Positions 2,981-10,530 of a DNA stretch of 37,702 nt are shown piece by piece. The stretch is from positions 1 to 37,702 of the forward strand of contig CACPON010000009.1 of assembly GCA_902635645.1 (NCBI GenBank), in the 5' to 3' direction. This DNA is from an uncultured SAR86 cluster bacterium. Lineage in GTDB: Bacteria > Pseudomonadota > Gammaproteobacteria > Magnimaribacterales > D2472. The notes beneath the pieces were generated by a model. That model saw nothing but the letters and a program-made list of their open reading frames with translations. It searched no databases and was not told the DNA's origin. The position numbers and the translations under genes were made by a program. Position 1 is the stretch's first letter. Each line of letters opens with the position of its first letter.

Positions 2981-3199
2981 ATGATAAGTCAAAAAAATAA
3001 CTTAGTTATGAATTTGGGTTTGGGAATAACTTTTGTTGGCATTGCTTTGTATGACTCATTGGGATTGATATTTACAGGCATGGGATTGATATTTGTTGGA
3101 TTTGGTTTAACTTTCATATATTTTGGCTACAGGCAATTGAATGAAGTTGAGATAATTAACAGAACTGTTGAAAGCTTCGAAAAAAATAGGAGAAAGTAA
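2981..3199 (+). CDS. Small two-helix membrane protein
   Basis: The protein is 72 residues from the ATG at 2981. An in-frame TTG at 2969 would add four residues, but GGAG at 2971-2974 sits correctly spaced for the ATG, so I use the ATG. Two glycine-rich hydrophobic stretches (about residues 10-27 and 29-48) are followed by a charged tail. The stop overlaps the next start as TAATG, so translation is probably coupled. No function is known. It heads an operon with another membrane protein, an XRE regulator and a glycine-zipper peptide. Confidence 0.7.
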   Translation: MISQKNNLVMNLGLGITFVGIALYDSLGLIFTGMGLIFVGFGLTFIYFGYRQLNEVEIINRTVESFEKNRRK

Positions 3200-6112: not shown

Positions 6113-6400
6113 TTATGTTATCAACTTGGGTATTATTCCTAGTTGAGCAAAAATACCAAAGATAATTAGCAATATAATGCTGGAGATTATTTTAAGATTC
6201 TTCTTTTGAATCCATTCAAACAAGTTGTCTATTAATTTCCTTATCCATATGTCTGCTTTGTCCACCCATTTAATAGCTTTTCTTGTCCATGTATCAGTCA
6301 CATCAATCAATGTAAGAAAAATTACTGCAATAACAAGCCATACAAAACCATTAAGTATCATGTCTATAATCCAACCTACTGCGATCCAGTTTATTTCCAT
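6113..6400 (-). CDS. Small membrane protein, unknown
   Basis: This 95-residue protein has an N-terminal hydrophobic helix (about residues 6-32), a charged amphipathic middle (TRKAIKWVDKADIWIRKLID) and a C-terminal hydrophobic helix (about residues 70-92). I do not recognise it. Its ATG is 6 nt beyond the outermost glmS-tail-like repeat (6407-6424), so it may be the first chromosomal gene beyond the cassette array, or an older cassette. It starts the DoxX/VOC/cupin gene series. Confidence 0.6.
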   Translation of the reverse strand: MEINWIAVGWIIDMILNGFVWLVIAVIFLTLIDVTDTWTRKAIKWVDKADIWIRKLIDNLFEWIQKKNLKIISSIILLIIFGIFAQLGIIPKLIT

Positions 6401-6406
6401 TATGAT

Positions 6407-6424
6407 TAATTCAACATTAACTGA
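6407..6424 (-). repeat. glmS-tail-like repeat E
   Basis: The minus strand reads TCAGTTAATGTTGAATTA, coding SVNVEL in the glmS frame. It lacks the stop and is the most degenerate copy in coding terms, yet at nucleotide level it is closest to the resident glmS end (TCAGTCACTGTTGAATGA, 14/18). Beside it, 6425-6441 matches 8132-8148 next to copy A at 15 of 17 positions. Confidence 0.5.
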
Positions 6425-6466
6425 GTGTTCTTATCCCGCCCTAATTTGTTATGAGATAATATTATC

Positions 6467-6778
6467 ATGTCGTCAGCAACAATAATCGTTACCTTTAAAG
6501 TTATCAATGGCAAAGAAGGTTTAGTTAAACAACTTCTAGAAAACACTCTCAACGAAACCAGGGGTTTTGATGGTTGTTTGTCATTAGAAGTATTCTATGA
6601 GAAGAAAACTAACTCATATCTAGCAATAGAAAAATGGGAATCAGTATCACACTACAACAGATATCTAGAGTGGAGAATACAGACAGGAATTGAAAAAGTC
6701 TTAAATCCTTTACTTGATGGTGGTTGGAAAAATGTTCTGGACAATATTAAAAAGTTTGAGGGTCCTGAGCAGGTTTAA
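6467..6778 (+). CDS. ABM-domain monooxygenase-like protein
   Basis: This 103-residue protein matches the antibiotic biosynthesis monooxygenase (ABM/YgiN) fold, a dimeric ferredoxin-like barrel. It begins ATIIVTFKVINGKEGLVKQL, has a central GFDGCLSLEVFYEKKTNSYL and the typical strand AIEKWESVSHYNRYLE. Family members oxidise quinols or polyketides without a cofactor, or degrade haem; the substrate here is unknown. It is the only gene of the array on the plus strand. Its stop codon (6776-6778) directly abuts repeat D, and repeat E lies 43 nt before its start. Confidence 0.88.
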   Translation: MSSATIIVTFKVINGKEGLVKQLLENTLNETRGFDGCLSLEVFYEKKTNSYLAIEKWESVSHYNRYLEWRIQTGIEKVLNPLLDGGWKNVLDNIKKFEGPEQV

Positions 6779-6796
6779 TTACTCCACCGTGGTGGA
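6779..6796 (-). repeat. glmS-tail-like repeat D
   Basis: The minus strand reads TCCACCACGGTGGAGTAA, coding S-T-T-V-E-stop in the glmS frame. It differs from repeat B by three bases near the left end. It contains a 6-bp palindrome (TCCACC-GT-GGTGGA on the plus strand). The ABM stop codon ends one base before it. Confidence 0.55.
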
Positions 6797-6799
6797 TTT

Positions 6800-7062
6800 A
6801 TTTTGTATGTAACAATTTTTATATTCATTATTTTTTTAGTCTTTGATACAAAGAAATTGAACCATTTAAAAACCAAACAACAACCAAACCCCACCAAATA
6901 ACAAAGAACCAGTCATTCTTATTTGTACCATTCCATTCCAACCACTCAAATACAAAACCTTCTACAAATAAATCAAATGATAGGAGAACAAAAAAACCAA
7001 AAACCCAAATTAAAAAGAAATTGAGATTGGTTAATTTATTCATTAACTGTTACATACAAAAT
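6800..7062. repeat. 15-bp inverted repeats bounding the 71-aa gene
   Basis: ATTTTGTATGTAACA at 6800-6814 is the exact reverse complement of TGTTACATACAAAAT at 7048-7062. The arms lie just inside repeats D and C and enclose the 71-aa membrane-protein gene and nothing else. The right arm's last base is the first base of repeat C. Confidence 0.75.
6828..7043 (-). CDS. 71-aa membrane protein, unknown
   Basis: This protein has two hydrophobic helices (about residues 8-27 and 45-62) rich in Phe and Trp, separated by an acidic, Asn-rich loop (WLEWNGTNKNDW). It ends in a short basic tail. I do not recognise the family. It is the only gene of its interval in the array, between repeats D and C and inside 15-bp inverted repeats. 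Its ATG is 5 nt from the right-hand inverted repeat, so little room remains for its own promoter. Confidence 0.6.
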   Translation of the reverse strand: MNKLTNLNFFLIWVFGFFVLLSFDLFVEGFVFEWLEWNGTNKNDWFFVIWWGLVVVWFLNGSISLYQRLKK

Positions 7063-7164
7063 TATTCGACCGTTACAGAGTGTATTTGAACAGAGAATAA
7101 GATTTTCGTCATTTTTAAACTTTTTGTGAAATGTTTTGTAAAACTTAATGTATTTTTGTTCCAT
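7036..7164 (-). CDS. Short ORF (42 aa), homologous to 7557-7682
   Basis: This frame starts 2 nt after the DUF2306-like gene stop and encodes 42 residues beginning MEQKYIKFYKTFHKKFKN. Thirteen of the first 18 residues match the short frame at 7557-7682, and four matching codons differ only synonymously, which suggests coding history. After that the frame crosses repeat C and diverges, ending inside the start of the 71-aa gene. It may be a short peptide, or a truncated gene end trapped at the cassette boundary. Confidence 0.35.
   Translation of the reverse strand: MEQKYIKFYKTFHKKFKNDENLILCSNTLCNGRIILYVTVNE
7062..7079 (-). repeat. glmS-tail repeat C
   Basis: The minus strand reads TCTGTAACGGTCGAATAA, coding Ser-Val-Thr-Val-Glu-stop exactly as at the end of glmS. 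Compared with copy A, the differences fall at third codon positions and in the stop codon. Confidence 0.65.
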
Positions 7165-7580
7165 TATTATCCAAATAATATGTGATGAAAAAGTCTTCCT
7201 GGCATCAAAGTAAATGCACCAGCAATTAAAAGTGCCCCAACGTAGACACCAATCATCGAATACATATGTGAGTATTTGTATCTTTCTATTTTTGTTTTTT
7301 TATATTTCTTAATGTTCCAAATTGAATAAATCAAAGAAACCAAAGTGAAGGGTATCAAAAGATGAATCCATGAATATTGTCCAGGGTTAATTGTTTGAAT
7401 AAATATTGCTGTCAAAGAAACTATTATTAAAAAAGTTACCCAGATTCGTCCGAGCATTTTATGTTGCTTTGTGCCCTTTTTGGTTAGGAAGATGTAAAGA
7501 CCAAGTGGAACTGCAAGCAATGCTAACGTTGCATGAGCATAAATTATCTGCATATTTTATATTTTAATTCTCTGTTCAAA
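7085..7580. repeat. 16-bp inverted repeats bounding the DUF2306-like gene
   Basis: TTTGAACAGAGAATAA at 7085-7100 matches the reverse complement of TAATTCTCTGTTCAAA at 7565-7580 at 15 of 16 positions. The arms lie just inside repeats C and B and enclose the 128-aa membrane-protein gene. Confidence 0.72.
7167..7553 (-). CDS. DUF2306-like membrane protein
   Basis: This 128-residue protein has four predicted helices (about residues 4-22, 38-54, 63-81 and 98-116). The spacing HATLALLAVPLGLYIF, then KKGTKQHKMLGRIWV and a His in helix three (SWIHLLIPF), fits the DUF2306 group of His-containing four-helix membrane proteins. The function of that group is not known to me; a haem or metal role is sometimes suspected because of the conserved His residues. 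It is the only main gene between repeats C and B. Confidence 0.7.
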   Translation of the reverse strand: MQIIYAHATLALLAVPLGLYIFLTKKGTKQHKMLGRIWVTFLIIVSLTAIFIQTINPGQYSWIHLLIPFTLVSLIYSIWNIKKYKKTKIERYKYSHMYSMIGVYVGALLIAGAFTLMPGRLFHHILFG

Positions 7581-7682
7581 CTTACTCCACCGTGACTGAC
7601 TTGAATGAAACAGAGAATTAGTTTTTTTATTCTGAAATCCTTTGTGGAAATTCTGATAAAACTTTATATATTTTTCTTCCAT
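7557..7682 (-). CDS. Short ORF (41 aa), homologous to 7036-7164
   Basis: This frame starts 2 nt after the MAPEG stop and ends 3 nt before the DUF2306-like start, filling the spacer almost exactly. It encodes 41 residues beginning MEEKYIKFYQNFHKGFQN and reads through repeat B in a frame different from the glmS one. The N-terminal half is homologous to the short frame at 7036-7164. The perfect fit between neighbours supports translation, but the C-terminal half is repeat-derived, so it could be a non-functional gene end. Confidence 0.38.
   Translation of the reverse strand: MEEKYIKFYQNFHKGFQNKKTNSLFHSSQSRWSKFEQRIKI
7582..7599 (-). repeat. glmS-tail repeat B
   Basis: The minus strand reads TCAGTCACGGTGGAGTAA, coding Ser-Val-Thr-Val-Glu-stop. 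Its first eight bases are identical to the resident glmS end; the remaining differences are at wobble positions and in the stop codon. The near-palindrome AATTCTCTGTT...AACAGAGAATT surrounds it, made of the inner ends of two neighbouring intervals. Confidence 0.65.
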
Positions 7683-8110
7683 ACTTATAAAAGTAGCATT
7701 ATCGATGTCCTGATGAGACCCAAGAAACCAACAAAAGTTAGTGCCATACCACCAATTCTTAAAAACATATTTGGATTCAAAAATGAAAAAACTATTCCGT
7801 GCATCAACCTCCCGACCGTAAATGCTACTCCAGAGAAATAAAGTTGAGTTTGAGGTGCACCTGATAATTCAAGAATAAACATTAAAATTAAGAATAGTGG
7901 AGCATATTCAACTAGGTTTCCGTGCCCTCTGATGGACCTTTGAAGAGTTTCGTCATCAACAATCCTGTTGGGTTTGTGAAGAAATTTTGTAACGGGACTT
8001 CCTCTGAGGTCGAGAACCCTAAAAGATAGAATTATCATAAATGATGAAAGTATCGTGGCAAATACTAGTGTAACTTCTGGCATGTTTATAAATTCATAAT
8101 TCTCTGTTTT
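7607..8110. repeat. 14-bp inverted repeats bounding the MAPEG gene
   Basis: GAAACAGAGAATTA at 7607-7620 matches the reverse complement of TAATTCTCTGTTTT at 8097-8110 at 13 of 14 positions. The arms lie just inside repeats B and A and enclose the MAPEG gene and the start of the 41-aa frame. The arm sequence is shared with the neighbouring DUF2306 interval. Confidence 0.7.
7685..8083 (-). CDS. MAPEG-family membrane protein
   Basis: This 132-residue protein has the MAPEG layout: four helices, with ETLQRSIRGHGNLVEYAPLF (residues 45-64) carrying the conserved Arg, Asn and Glu-Tyr, and FTVGRLMHGIVF (about residues 88-99) carrying the glycine-Arg-x-x-His motif. Family members are membrane glutathione transferases and eicosanoid enzymes; bacterial members are mostly uncharacterised but may conjugate or reduce electrophiles with glutathione. 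It is the only main gene between repeats B and A in the glmS-tail array. Confidence 0.88.
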   Translation of the reverse strand: MPEVTLVFATILSSFMIILSFRVLDLRGSPVTKFLHKPNRIVDDETLQRSIRGHGNLVEYAPLFLILMFILELSGAPQTQLYFSGVAFTVGRLMHGIVFSFLNPNMFLRIGGMALTFVGFLGLIRTSIMLLL

Positions 8111-8113
8111 GTT

Positions 8114-8131
8114 CTACTCGACCGTAACCGA
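8114..8131 (-). repeat. glmS-tail repeat A
   Basis: The minus strand reads TCGGTTACGGTCGAGTAG, coding Ser-Val-Thr-Val-Glu-stop, with 5-bp palindromic ends (ACTCG...CGAGT). It differs from the resident glmS end at six of 18 positions, five in third codon positions and the last within the stop. Its left flank shares 15 of 17 bases with that of repeat E. Confidence 0.68.
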
Positions 8132-8161
8132 GTGTTCTTAACCCACCCAACTAACCTAAAT

Positions 8162-8707
8162 TCATAGTTTGTTAATTTTTTCATTGAGTATCTCTCTGTC
8201 CAGTTTCAGAGACTTAGCATTAAAAAAAATAAAATTCCAAATAAATGTCATGATACATGTTAATCCATAACCCATGATTATGAATATTGGCAAGTCGGGT
8301 GGAGGTCTAGACGATTCTTCAATAAGAACCCAAATACCTACAATTGCAAAAAAACCAAACCCGCCATAGAGAATAAGTCTGCTAATAAAATAATTAATAA
8401 TAAATAATTTTTTAGATGGCGAAATAAGCTGGTATGTATATAAAAAAACTACAGCTGCAAAAATATCAATTATTACCCATGTTAATTTTTCATTAAAATA
8501 AATTGGGAAAATTGGATTAAAAAGAATGGCCAACATCATTAACAATATCCAAATGCTGTTATTTCTTTTATTTAGTTCATATGTTCCATATATAAATGAC
8601 AAACAAATAACTGTTCTGGTAAATACATAAAAAGTTGCATTAAATGGAAATGCTGATATTAGTGACACGGCCATTCCAGCTAATAAAATTTTTGGATCAA
8701 GATTCAT
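8162..8707 (-). CDS. Membrane protein, DUF6804-like, coupled to glmS
   Basis: This 181-residue protein has about five hydrophobic segments. The stretch LAILFNPIFPIYFNEKLTWV (residues 60-79) resembles the DUF6804 group of small membrane proteins, a call made from memory. Its ATG overlaps the glmS stop (ATGA at 8707-8704), with no ribosome site of its own, so translation must be coupled to glmS. In the array model it is the most recent arrival, placed directly on the restored glmS end. Function is unknown. Confidence 0.65.
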   Translation of the reverse strand: MNLDPKILLAGMAVSLISAFPFNATFYVFTRTVICLSFIYGTYELNKRNNSIWILLMMLAILFNPIFPIYFNEKLTWVIIDIFAAVVFLYTYQLISPSKKLFIINYFISRLILYGGFGFFAIVGIWVLIEESSRPPPDLPIFIIMGYGLTCIMTFIWNFIFFNAKSLKLDREILNEKINKL

Positions 8708-10530
8708 TCAACAGTGACTGATTTAGCTAGATTCCTTGGTTGATCAATATCTGTTCCTCTTAGAATAGCAACTTCGTATGAAAGAATTTGTAATGGAATG
8801 TTATAAACAATTGGTGTCATAAAGAAATCGCATTTAGGCATATGAATCAATTTTCCTGATTTAACATCCATATTTACTGAAGGATCAGCACAGACATAAA
8901 GGGTTCCGCCTCTTGCCTTTACTTCTTCTAAATTAGAAATTAGTTTTTCTGCAATTTCACTCTCTGGAGCCAATGCTATAACAGGCATATTTTCATCTAT
9001 TAATGCAAGCGGGCCATGTTTTAGCTCACCGGCTGGGTAAGCTTCGGCATGAATATAAGAAATTTCTTTAAGCTTTAATGCTCCTTCTTTGGCGATGGGA
9101 TAAAAAATACCTCTACCTAAAAATAAAGCATTGTCTTTATTAGCAATACTTGGAGCTATTTCAACTATCTTTTCTTTTGTGTTAAGGGCTTCTGCAATAG
9201 TCTCTGGCAGCAATCTTAATGCTTGAACAATTCTTCCCCTAAGTTTTGGGTTTAATCCTCTACTTTTTGCTAGCGACAATGCAAGCAACATTAATCCTGC
9301 AAGCTGAGTTGTAAATGCTTTGGTTGAGGCAACGCCTATTTCAGGACCAGCATTGGTAAATAATGAAAAATCTGACTCTCTAGCTAAAGAGCTGGTTGGA
9401 ACGTTGCAAATAGTAAGGGTAGAAAGATAGTCTTTTTCTTTTGCATAGTTTAATGCGGCTAATGTATCAGCTGTTTCACCTGATTGAGAAATGGTAATTA
9501 ATAATGAATTTTCATCTACATGAGGGTTTCTATATCTATACTCACTTGCGTAATCAATTTGACAAGGAAGTTCGGCTATTGATGAAAACCAACTGGCGGC
9601 AACTCTTCCTGCATGAAGACTTGTTCCGCAAGCAACTATTTGAATACGTTTTACTTTTGAGAATAGTTCGGTAGAGCCTAAACCGAAAATATTATCTAGA
9701 ACATCTTCGCCACCTATTCTTCCGTCTATTGTTTTTGAAACAGCTTCAGGTTGCTCGTATATTTCTTTTTCCATATAGTGCCTGTAATCACCCTTTGAGG
9801 TGGCTTGGGCTGAAATATCTATATGTGTGATTTCTCTTTTGGCTTCGTTTTTGGATTCATCAAAGATTTTGTAGCTATTAGCAGAGATCTCTGCCACATC
9901 ACCATCTTCTAAAAAAATAAAATCATTGGTTTGTTGGGCTATAGCAAGCGGATCTGAGGCTGCAAACATTTCATCGGTTCCAATTCCTATTAATAGAGGT
10001 GATTTGTTTCTTGCTATAACCAAATTAGTACTATCTTTTATATCAATAGCTGCTATCGCGTATGCACCCTCAAGTTTTTCTTTTGCTGAATACATTGCAT
10101 CGATCATTGACTGGCCTTGGTTGATATGTTGATCAAGTAAATGAGCAATTAGCTCTGAATCTGTTTGAGATATAAATTCATAACCATCTTTCTTAAGATC
10201 TTCTCTGAGCTCAACATAATTTTCAATAATACCGTTATGAACAATATAAACCGAATCTTGAGACTTATGGGGATGAGCATTAATCTCTGATGGTTCTCCA
10301 TGAGTTGCCCATCTTGTATGAGCAATGCCTAGTTTACTTTTTGGTTTTTCAGCAATCATTTTTTCTTCTAGAAGCTGAACTTTTCCAAGAGTTCGAAGGT
10401 GTGCTATGCCGTCATTTTGATGAAGAGCGATGCCTGCAGAATCATATCCTCTATATTCCATTTTATGGAGTCCTTGGACCAATAGTTTTCCGACATTTCT
10501 ATTTGAAGCAGCAGCTATAATTCCGCACAT
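8704..10530 (-). CDS. glmS: Glutamine-fructose-6-phosphate aminotransferase
   Basis: This 608-residue enzyme makes glucosamine-6-phosphate from fructose-6-phosphate and glutamine, the first step to UDP-GlcNAc. The catalytic Cys follows the initiator Met (MCGIIAAASN). The glutaminase domain shows GIAHTRWATHGEPS, and the two SIS domains show VACGTSLHAG, ISQSGETADTLAA and GRGIFYPIAKEGALKLKEIS. It ends in the usual PRNLAKSVTVE. The gene follows glmU by 2 nt and overlaps the next ATG. Its 3' end is the apparent source of the repeats downstream and is also the known target of Tn7 in other bacteria. No glmS ribozyme can fit the 2-nt spacer. Confidence 0.98.
   Translation of the reverse strand: MCGIIAAASNRNVGKLLVQGLHKMEYRGYDSAGIALHQNDGIAHLRTLGKVQLLEEKMIAEKPKSKLGIAHTRWATHGEPSEINAHPHKSQDSVYIVHNGIIENYVELREDLKKDGYEFISQTDSELIAHLLDQHINQGQSMIDAMYSAKEKLEGAYAIAAIDIKDSTNLVIARNKSPLLIGIGTDEMFAASDPLAIAQQTNDFIFLEDGDVAEISANSYKIFDESKNEAKREITHIDISAQATSKGDYRHYMEKEIYEQPEAVSKTIDGRIGGEDVLDNIFGLGSTELFSKVKRIQIVACGTSLHAGRVAASWFSSIAELPCQIDYASEYRYRNPHVDENSLLITISQSGETADTLAALNYAKEKDYLSTLTICNVPTSSLARESDFSLFTNAGPEIGVASTKAFTTQLAGLMLLALSLAKSRGLNPKLRGRIVQALRLLPETIAEALNTKEKIVEIAPSIANKDNALFLGRGIFYPIAKEGALKLKEISYIHAEAYPAGELKHGPLALIDENMPVIALAPESEIAEKLISNLEEVKARGGTLYVCADPSVNMDVKSGKLIHMPKCDFFMTPIVYNIPLQILSYEVAILRGTDIDQPRNLAKSVTVE

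Follow-up and report, generated by a model that had tools for sequence, protein, structure and literature searches.

The array downstream of glmS

The window analyzed here is a stretch of 37,702 nucleotides from a genome of the marine SAR86 cluster (assembly GCA_902635645.1, contig CACPON010000009.1, positions 1 to 37,702). It contains a glmS gene followed by a series of short copies of the glmS 3' end, separated by compact units that most often hold one gene (Table 1). An earlier note had located these copies at 8114, 7582, 7062, 6779 and 6407 and read them as displaced gene ends. The observation is confirmed, and all five positions are right: on the glmS strand, exact Ser-Val-Thr-Val-Glu-stop copies lie at the first three positions and two-mismatch copies at the last two, besides the glmS end itself at 8704. 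Allowing up to 2 mismatches, we found 6 hits in the window against 0.83 expected, and 0 of 100 dinucleotide shuffles reached 6. No tRNA was found between positions 3000 and 11000, and a search for RNA families in this region returned two matches, both below their gathering scores.

Table 1. Features of the glmS tail array (positions in the window; a dot marks features without strand).
Position	Strand	Feature	Details
8704..10530	-	glmS (GlmS, 608 aa)	last 18 nt (8704-8721) are the target site; crossover dinucleotide AC at 8714-8715
8162..8707	-	unit 1 cargo, DUF6804 protein	ATG overlaps the glmS stop; unit not among the 150 best arm pairs of 204
8114..8131	-	displaced tail copy A	TCGGTT-AC-GGTCGAGTAG; crossover AC at 8124-8125, from linkage
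8097..8119	.	unit 2 start arm	partner is the end arm at 7598-7620 (83% complementary); 17 of 24 symmetric pairs
7685..8083	-	unit 2 cargo, MAPEG family protein	PF01124, E 9.5e-19
7598..7620	.	unit 2 end arm	
7582..7599	-	displaced tail copy B	TCAGTC-AC-GGTGGAGTAA
7567..7587	.	unit 3 start arm	partner is 7078-7098 (86% complementary); 18 of 24
7167..7553	-	unit 3 cargo, DUF2306 membrane protein	PF10067, E 4.4e-10
7078..7098	.	unit 3 end arm	
7062..7079	-	displaced tail copy C	TCTGTA-AC-GGTCGAATAA
7032..7071	.	unit 4 start arm	partner is 6791-6830 (75% complementary over 40 nt); 19 of 24
6828..7043	-	unit 4 cargo, 71-aa ORF	no Pfam match
6791..6830	.	unit 4 end arm	
6779..6796	-	displaced copy D	TCCACC-AC-GGTGGAGTAA; intact right half-site, divergent left half-site
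6467..6778	+	unit 5 cargo, antibiotic biosynthesis monooxygenase-like protein	opposite strand; PF03992, E 1.1e-7
6407..6424	-	outermost, degenerate copy E	just before the native flank; not matched by the half-site pattern, so not in the unit counts
6113..6400	-	native boundary gene (95 aa, MEINWI...)	closes the array; found downstream of glmS in 38 of 75 loci at 235-6384 bp

Two refinements are needed. First, each copy consists of two half-sites with different histories. The right half, AC-NGTNGARTAR, encodes Thr-Val-Glu-stop, whereas the left half, TCNGTN, is not a former gene end in the model that fits best. The note had taken the third-position differences among the copies as a sign that they once evolved as real gene ends; this holds only for the right half-site. 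Second, of the two copies described as degenerate, the one at 6779 is intact on its right half, and only that at 6407 is truly degenerate; it sits directly before the gene that closes the array in relatives.

We then extended the analysis to 75 loci (numbered L below; genomes are numbered G), covering 532,772 bases. We found 207 displaced right half-sites in glmS orientation against 1 on the other strand. The left half departs from TCNGTN in 52 of the 207 displaced copies. Our search pattern fixes the right half-site by construction, so that conservation there is not independent evidence, while the left half and the arms described below are; a few of the 207 look like chance gene ends rather than sites (for example L027 at 7600, L035 at 7389, L039 at 2080 and L049 at 2009). 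Between glmS and the boundary gene there are 95 cores, and 4 lie beyond it. Units, defined between right half-sites so that a decayed site fuses two of them, have a median length of 683 bp. The arrangement of one small gene per unit proposed in the note is the commonest case: 119 of 207 units have exactly one non-overlapping ORF of 60 aa or more, 26 have none and 62 have more.

In the SAR86 order, 105 of 203 genomes have two or more tail copies on one strand, against 5 of 365 other Gammaproteobacteria. These counts were made by hand and include the glmS end; the copies were not checked for lying on one contig nor, in the other Gammaproteobacteria, for belonging to glmS. An assembly or binning artefact, conceivable because many genomes are drafts, is contradicted and can be all but dismissed: arrays lie inside long contigs, for example L016, which appears to be the single-cell record SCGC AAA168-P09, and near-identical units recur in independent genomes.

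Borders, arms and turnover of the units

To locate the unit borders, we asked which neighboring unit each position of the core travels with. Core positions up to 6 follow the upstream unit (at position 6, identity is 0.78 when the upstream unit is shared and 0.35 when only the downstream unit is shared, with 0.32 expected by chance), and positions from 15 on follow the downstream unit (0.95 at position 15). This puts the exchange at or next to the AC of the Thr codon. Positions 9 and 12 follow the downstream unit only partly (0.58 and 0.65), so that a pure 2-bp exchange does not explain every base. The borders lie inside the glmS coding end, and direct repeats are present at both borders with the gene end restored.

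About half the units carry matched arms that form a pseudo-palindrome of about 54 bp centered on this AC. Arms match symmetrically about AC at 16 or more of 24 positions in 98 of 204 units, against about 14 expected with shuffled partners, while 106 of 204 lack well matched arms. Across junctions only 9 of 138 match, so arms belong to units. In a second SAR86 family, 19 of 33 units show matched arms against 2.4 expected (one of the 15 loci of this family, L174, was dropped because no glmS end was found). The 117 matched units contain 60 distinct 11-mers and fall into 16 arm classes, three of them dominant. The earlier note had seen neither the matched arms nor the crossover position, which point to the mechanism.

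The note proposed that units insert serially at the glmS 3' end, each restoring the gene end and pushing the old tail outward, and this interpretation is supported by what close relatives show. Loci L030 and L026, whose glmS ends are 97.7% identical, differ by two units placed exactly between glmS and the unit that directly follows glmS in L030; L035 and L026 (92.6%) differ by four. Single units are gained or lost with clean junctions. Units also enter at displaced, non-glmS copies (L049 at 2061 against L039 at 2132-2574), which the note had not foreseen. Two outcomes had been set out in advance as fatal to serial insertion, namely repeats at many loci unrelated to glmS and a fixed array common to all relatives, and we observed neither. 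In the whole draft genome of the window (887,777 bases, 66% complete) the exact pattern occurs 4 times, all at this locus and in the same orientation, with 0 occurrences of the backward control, and the arrays differ between relatives. The strand bias, the locus specificity and these differences likewise reject a chance or fixed repeat.

Units also appear to move between genera: units 96.6-99.4% identical occur in genera whose glmS ends are 67-82% identical. Tandem duplication of the glmS end, or homologous recombination through the 18-bp repeats without a dedicated recombinase, was considered, since repeats can recombine and neighboring units can be shared as a block (L011 and L026 share three). 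We regard it as very unlikely. In the rows examined, tail copies are flanked by unit sequences and not by more glmS sequence, unrelated units share the same border, single units differ between unchanged neighbors, and the matched arms contradict it as well.

Search for the recombinase

We searched unit proteins for recombinases by Pfam scans of 168 cluster representatives, from 183 clusters of 301 ORFs (15 clusters whose longest member is under 75 aa were left out). The scans listed one Resolvase and no other recombinase or transposase; only the first 25 of 42, 36 and 31 families were examined in the three scans, so that 34 families with weaker matches were not seen, and a serine integrase in further units is thus neither observed nor ruled out. 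The Resolvase belongs to the first unit of L041, a 6-kb unit that encodes a 551-aa protein with Resolvase and Recombinase domains and a zinc ribbon below its cut-off. The TP901-1 integrase is among its solved relatives. The gene ends 25 nt before the core, and the arms of the unit are shared by other units that lack the gene (the end arms were read one base off in this comparison, so that the 10-11 mismatches computed for them are an artefact, and the match is seen in the letters themselves). A tblastn search with the L041 integrase against phage records found 443 records, all below 60% identity.

Serine integrases are nearly absent. Resolvase matches occur in 3 of 107 family genomes and 6 of 203 order genomes, and the window's own draft genome, 66% complete, has none. 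Apart from the L041 unit we found none beside a tail, although a match below the cut-off in G150 and two shorter Resolvase proteins in G107 and G124 were not followed. Two other serine integrases, in G080 and G089, overlap or abut tRNA-Ala genes and lie away from glmS. The L041 arms belong to a class of 13 of the 117 matched units, and no integrase was seen for the commonest class (AACAGTGATTT, 71 of 117).

A 2-bp crossover within a pseudo-palindrome points to a serine integrase. The attP of such an enzyme is pseudo-palindromic, with 25-bp half-sites about a central dinucleotide (PMC3783163), and about half the units fit this description, with the reservation on positions 9 and 12. However, serine integrases are reported not to recombine site pairings other than attP with attB without a helper factor (PMC3783163), yet array growth needs this or an equivalent. 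We also compared the arms with the glmS flank for the 5-bp attP/attB shift expected of this enzyme class: a peak was seen at shift 6 for the native flank, based on four sequences only, and none at 5 or 6 for the glmS side, which speaks neither for nor against the enzyme. Phage and island large serine integrases (A118, TP901-1, PLE) share with the L041 protein the Resolvase and Recombinase domains and the weak zinc ribbon, and with the units the pseudo-palindromic attachment site, but those elements carry their own integrase and usually occupy their site once, whereas here an integrase was seen in one of 207 units and the units form arrays.

Alternatively, the same arrays may be built by another enzyme, either a host recombinase such as XerC/XerD or an unknown one, that recognizes the matched arms as a folded single strand, as the integron integrase does with attC. 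We consider this possible but unlikely. In its support, arms are diverse in sequence but matched within a unit, as in attC; tyrosine recombinases of XerC/XerD size were found in 103 of 107 genomes, mostly two each in the part of the list examined, whereas serine integrases are nearly absent; and targets with unmatched arms seem to be accepted. Over all 24 arm positions, coding ones included, A-C mismatches exceed G-T (134 against 80), which would fit folding of the bottom strand. In the non-coding part of the arms, with near-duplicates removed, the imbalance is not significant (G-T 21, A-C 28, p 0.39; at a looser threshold 33 and 40, p 0.48), so that mismatch types give no clear sign of folding either way. 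Furthermore, the exchange is centered on two bases and not on a 6-8 bp overlap, and the few dominant arm classes are as expected for a limited number of sequence-specific enzymes.

No integron integrase was seen. In the window's genus each genome has mostly two conserved tyrosine recombinases, none of the listed ones within 10 kb of the glmS found, and there is none among the Pfam families listed for the units. Integrons otherwise share arrays of compact, often single-gene, mostly co-oriented, apparently promoterless cassettes, each with its own imperfectly palindromic recombination site; here the entry site is the coding end of glmS. IS110-type transposases (PF02371) were found in 0 of 107 genomes, against 4 of 14 control genomes.

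Tn7 and Tn7-like elements also use the glmS end as a landmark, at attTn7, but insert beyond the gene, carry transposition genes and leave the tail single, whereas the borders observed here lie within the coding sequence. TniQ matches were found in 0 of 107 family genomes, but no control genome gave a match either and TnsABC were not searched, so that the gene content does not settle the point. Together with the absence of transposases among the listed families, the border position makes Tn7-like remnants very improbable.

We also looked for a vehicle. Four scans of viral contigs gave nothing relevant; the single hit, contig L161, shows neither glmS nor a recombinase in the 1.8 kb examined. Comparison of two arrays with phage records by megablast gave no match; plasmids and metagenome contigs were not searched. 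A PADLOC scan of one third of the cargo showed mainly methyltransferase and restriction models.

A putative cassette-collecting site

We propose, with moderate confidence, that the 3' end of glmS is a chromosomal cassette-collecting site in the SAR86 order. In this view, each cassette is a small, nearly always recombinase-free unit, most often one gene read in the glmS direction with about 30 nt on either side. Its free form, inferred to be a circle, would carry one pseudo-palindromic attachment site: end arm, TCNGTN, AC, NGTNGARTAR, start arm. Strand exchange at the central AC would insert the unit into the glmS tail or a displaced copy of it; the incoming right half-site would supply new Thr-Val-Glu-stop codons, so that GlmS stays intact, and the old right half-site would be pushed outward. 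Repetition would build the array. The sequences themselves show the unit borders at the core, the crossover at or next to AC, the matched arms in about half the units, the gain or loss of single units, and near-identical single units in different genera. By contrast, we infer the circular intermediate, the action in trans of serine integrases encoded by rare autonomous elements such as the L041 unit, and the expression of cassettes by read-through from glmS. No circle was observed, and recombination of these sites by the enzyme was not assayed.

The site works like SCC and integrons but is neither, and the closest known systems differ in several respects. The staphylococcal cassette chromosome (SCC/SCCmec) is inserted site-specifically by large serine recombinases (Ccr) at a housekeeping gene, orfX/rlmH, with direct-repeat junctions (PMC13296057), and ACME is inserted in tandem with SCCmec (PMC5964201). 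The gene end is restored there too, and elements without ccr can be moved in trans. However, SCC elements are large and normally carry ccr, whereas here the target is glmS, the host is a marine gammaproteobacterial order and the units are short and nearly always without a recombinase. The pdif modules are likewise small, single-gene, recombinase-free modules with short inverted sites recombined by Xer, but they are plasmid-borne with conserved Xer sites, while here the arms vary and the target is glmS.

We think it more likely than not that this is a gene-capture platform with integron-like logic that is not an integron, in which an order of bacteria uses the last codons of an essential gene as entry site and stores mostly single-gene, recombinase-free cassettes with self-matched attachment sites, moved between genera by serine integrases supplied in trans. 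Repair of the essential gene by each cassette would keep the site usable after every insertion. How so many different cassettes are moved when the recombinase gene is nearly always absent is a testable enzyme question, and a serine integrase that writes small units into a defined, self-repairing coding site could also be a useful laboratory tool.

SAR86 is one of the commonest bacterial groups of the surface ocean, with small genomes (0.7-1.8 Mb in those surveyed). About half the genomes of the order examined show tail copies beyond glmS, at a site that takes in single genes, including those for restriction enzymes, nucleases, drug and metal transport proteins and small detoxification enzymes. 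If the mechanism is right, it is a second design for gene-cassette arrays beside the integron, and it gives streamlined genomes a cheap way to sample genes.

Displaced glmS tails in SAR86 genomes

By GlmS sequence, the closest named relatives of the bacterium carrying this array are SAR86 cluster records (98-95% identity for the first six). Downstream of glmS and on the same strand, the last 18 nt of the gene recur five times, as the earlier note had observed. Within the window, six hits were obtained against 0.83 expected, a number reached in 0 of 100 shuffled sequences. A genome-wide search for the motif, which the earlier note had put forward as a test of its reading, revealed no exact copy anywhere else in the draft genome of 887,777 bases, of which the window is one contig. 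Between the copies lie genes for a DUF6804 protein, a MAPEG protein, a DUF2306 protein, a 71-aa ORF without Pfam match and an ABM-domain protein, the last on the other strand. A short ORF with the motif KYIKFY near its start, seen twice in the window, recurs at the 3' end of 19 units and often runs through the arm and core; its function is unknown.

Coordinates of the glmS array in the window and positions of selected units and flanks in other loci (locus@position)
Locus	Position	Strand	Feature
Window	8704-10530	-	glmS
Window	8114	-	copy of the last 18 nt of glmS, exact in sense
Window	7582	-	copy of the last 18 nt of glmS, exact in sense
Window	7062	-	copy of the last 18 nt of glmS, exact in sense
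Window	6779	-	copy of the last 18 nt of glmS, two mismatches
Window	6407	-	copy of the last 18 nt of glmS, two mismatches
Window	6113-6400		native gene closing the array
Window	7036-7164 and 7557-7682	-	short ORF with the motif KYIKFY near its start
Other loci	L008@2459, L013@2237, L021@5378, L023@2033, L048@1810, L075@2789, L077@1043		two-ORF sulfotransferase-like unit of about 1.57 kb
Other loci	e.g. L005, L008@1175, L016@3058		presumed empty-site flank (first bases after the outermost tail)
Other loci	e.g. L014@4130, L026@2131, L047@645		units beginning ...TTTCATTTTAATCCCGCATTCTGCGGGGGTTT..., with the arm class of the integrase-bearing unit

The alignment of glmS downstream regions in related genomes had also been named beforehand as a check. 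We searched GlmS in 107 genomes of the family, which gave 86 matches including the window's own, and extracted the downstream region of 75 others; the ten left out mostly have glmS cut or broken. A glmS end was found in 74 of the 75 (all but L060), which together with the window makes 75 loci (handles beginning with L designate extracted loci). Displaced right half-sites, ACNGTNGARTAR or its TGA variant, occur 207 times on the glmS strand and once on the other in 532,772 bases, although a few of the 207 look like chance gene ends. Copies per locus range from 0 (6 loci, of which L018, L020 and L024 comprise only about 500 bp) to 9, and are most often 2 or 3.

In the whole order, 153 of 203 genomes have at least one exact 18-nt match, and 105 of 203 have two or more on one strand (counted by hand, glmS end included): 71 of 107, 16 of 40, 13 of 35 and 5 of 21 in the four families. 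In 365 other gammaproteobacterial genomes, from which the 4 SAR86 genomes of the draw were left out, 5 have two or more on one strand, and the rest have one or none per strand. Of these five genomes only one, G550, was looked at more closely: in this small non-SAR86 genome (1.0 Mb; locus L162, G550:C15) a displaced tail lies 962 bp after the end of glmS, without matched arms by eye. The system may reach beyond SAR86.

Crossover position and matched arms

If units are exchanged, bases to the left of the crossover should follow the upstream unit and bases to the right the downstream unit. We compared 116 pairs of junctions that share the upstream unit but not the downstream one, and 112 pairs with the reverse. 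Position 6 of the core is 0.78 identical in the first set and 0.35 in the second (chance 0.32), while position 15 is 0.49 and 0.95 identical (chance 0.53). Positions 9 and 12 are at or near chance in the first set (0.30 and 0.41) and intermediate in the second (0.58 and 0.65), a partial linkage for which we have no explanation. So the exchange lies between positions 6 and 9, at the A7-C8 of the Thr codon, and the right half thus brings Thr-Val-Glu-stop with each incoming unit. The left half, TCNGTN, stays at the outer end of a unit and, in this model, would never become part of GlmS; it departs from that pattern in 52 of 207 displaced copies.

Counting outward from AC, the sequence just after a unit's first core is the reverse complement of the sequence just before its last core, with 16 or more of 24 positions matching in 98 of 204 units (80 bp or longer) against about 14 when partners are shuffled. 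Across a junction between two neighboring units, only 9 of 138 reach this level. The arms therefore belong to the unit, and in a circle they would flank one core as a pseudo-palindrome reaching about 27 bp to each side. We repeated this test on a second SAR86 family that had not been used to find the pattern (15 of its 16 genomes with two or more copies; one locus was dropped) and obtained 19 of 33 units against 2.4 expected.

Arms of 117 matched units from both families fall into 16 classes, three of which hold 71, 13 and 12 units. To ask whether one folded strand is recognized, we compared mismatch types: in the non-coding arms, G-T and A-C mismatches do not differ significantly (21 against 28, p 0.39), whereas over all 24 positions A-C leads (134 against 80). 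We see no clear sign of such recognition but do not exclude it. The presumed empty-site flank, AGAAAGATTTCTCGGTTGATC, looks by eye like an inverted copy of the glmS coding stretch upstream of the tail, so that the empty site is itself nearly palindromic.

Candidate enzymes and related systems

A 2-bp exchange in the middle of a pseudo-palindrome of about 50 bp is what serine integrases would leave; a pseudo-palindromic attP with 25-bp half-sites and a central dinucleotide has been described (PMC3783163). One unit, the first of locus L041 (6047 bp), encodes a 551-aa protein with Resolvase (E 6e-24), Recombinase (1e-11) and zinc ribbon (3e-4, below its cut-off) matches, ending 25 nt before the core. 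Its arms recur in units of L026, L047 and partly L039 and L014 that lack the gene. However, such genes are rare: Resolvase matches were found in 3 of 107 family genomes and in 6 of 203 order genomes (one of the six below cut-off). Two of the former (L103 and L104) are large serine integrases that overlap or abut tRNA-Ala genes, which suggests a separate integration system. We also obtained ten short matches to the Recombinase DNA-binding domain (PF07508) alone; nine of these (loci L093-L100 and L102, in glmS arrays such as those of L036, L048, L057 and L063) have glmS-tail cores within the extracted 2-3 kb, and seven have an ATG-started ORF of 64-133 aa. These may be accessory factors or remnants.

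Profile searches of the 107 genomes detected no IS110 transposase, no TniQ match (in a search without a positive control) and mostly two tyrosine recombinases per genome, presumably XerC and XerD. We thus favor, with moderate confidence, serine integrases acting in trans, and retain a host or unknown recombinase as the main rival. Both the identity of the enzyme and the circular intermediate are inferred rather than shown; the circle is likely, but none was observed.

The system works like SCC elements, which involve large serine recombinases, insertion at orfX and direct-repeat junctions (PMC13296057) as well as tandem copies (PMC5964201), and like integron cassettes. It is a member of neither: the target and ccr do not fit SCC, and no integron integrase was found. 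Among the titles and abstract openings seen in searches of the open-access literature on SAR86, glmS and related subjects, and on serine-recombinase or tandem cassettes, none describes this arrangement, although preprints and most subscription papers lay outside these searches, so that the system is not proven to be undescribed.

Gain, loss, transfer and cargo of units

Loci L049 and L039 share neighbors, but L039 has one extra 442-bp unit, bordered by the core, at a displaced site. L030 and L026, whose glmS ends are 97.7% identical, differ by two units placed between glmS and a shared unit, and L035 and L026 (92.6%) differ by four. In total, 44 candidate events were listed, many of them with only 80-90% flank identity. 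A native gene closes the array: we found it in 38 of 75 loci, 235 to 6384 bp from glmS, with 95 cores on the glmS side and 4 beyond it. In L005 (98% GlmS identity to the window) it lies 235 bp from glmS with no displaced tail, while in the window it is 2304 bp away. We regard site-specific, cassette-wise insertion at the glmS tail as nearly certain, in support of the serial insertion proposed in the earlier note.

Twenty-four groups of full-length shared units were found (77 pairs). Between genera, a 538-bp unit is 98.1% identical where glmS ends are 69.0% identical, a 625-bp unit 98.7% against 69.0%, a 541-bp unit 98.3% against 70.1%, and a 540-bp unit 99.4% against 81.9%. Within one genus (g9), a 663-bp unit is 99.8% identical against 79.4%. 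Not all groups are recent, as some pairs are 75-80% identical. The two-ORF sulfotransferase-like unit is up to 99.4% identical across genera, but its start border varies while its end looks fixed, and its arms do not match; it may enter differently.

Pfam families among the cargo include glyoxalases, HNH and restriction endonucleases, DNA methylases, small multidrug resistance, mercury and metal proteins, GFA, sulfotransferase, MAPEG and several of unknown function. Units with the arm class of the integrase-bearing unit share a conserved block after the arm; the L026@2131 ORF reads by eye like an HNH endonuclease, so this may be a defense-carrying subfamily. In units of 150-1000 bp with an ORF of 60 aa or more, the main ORF is on the glmS strand in 98 of 105, and the median distance is 32.5 nt from the tail stop codon to the first ORF and 34 nt from the last ORF to the next core. 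This leaves little room for a promoter, and we infer that the cargo is likely to be expressed by read-through from glmS.
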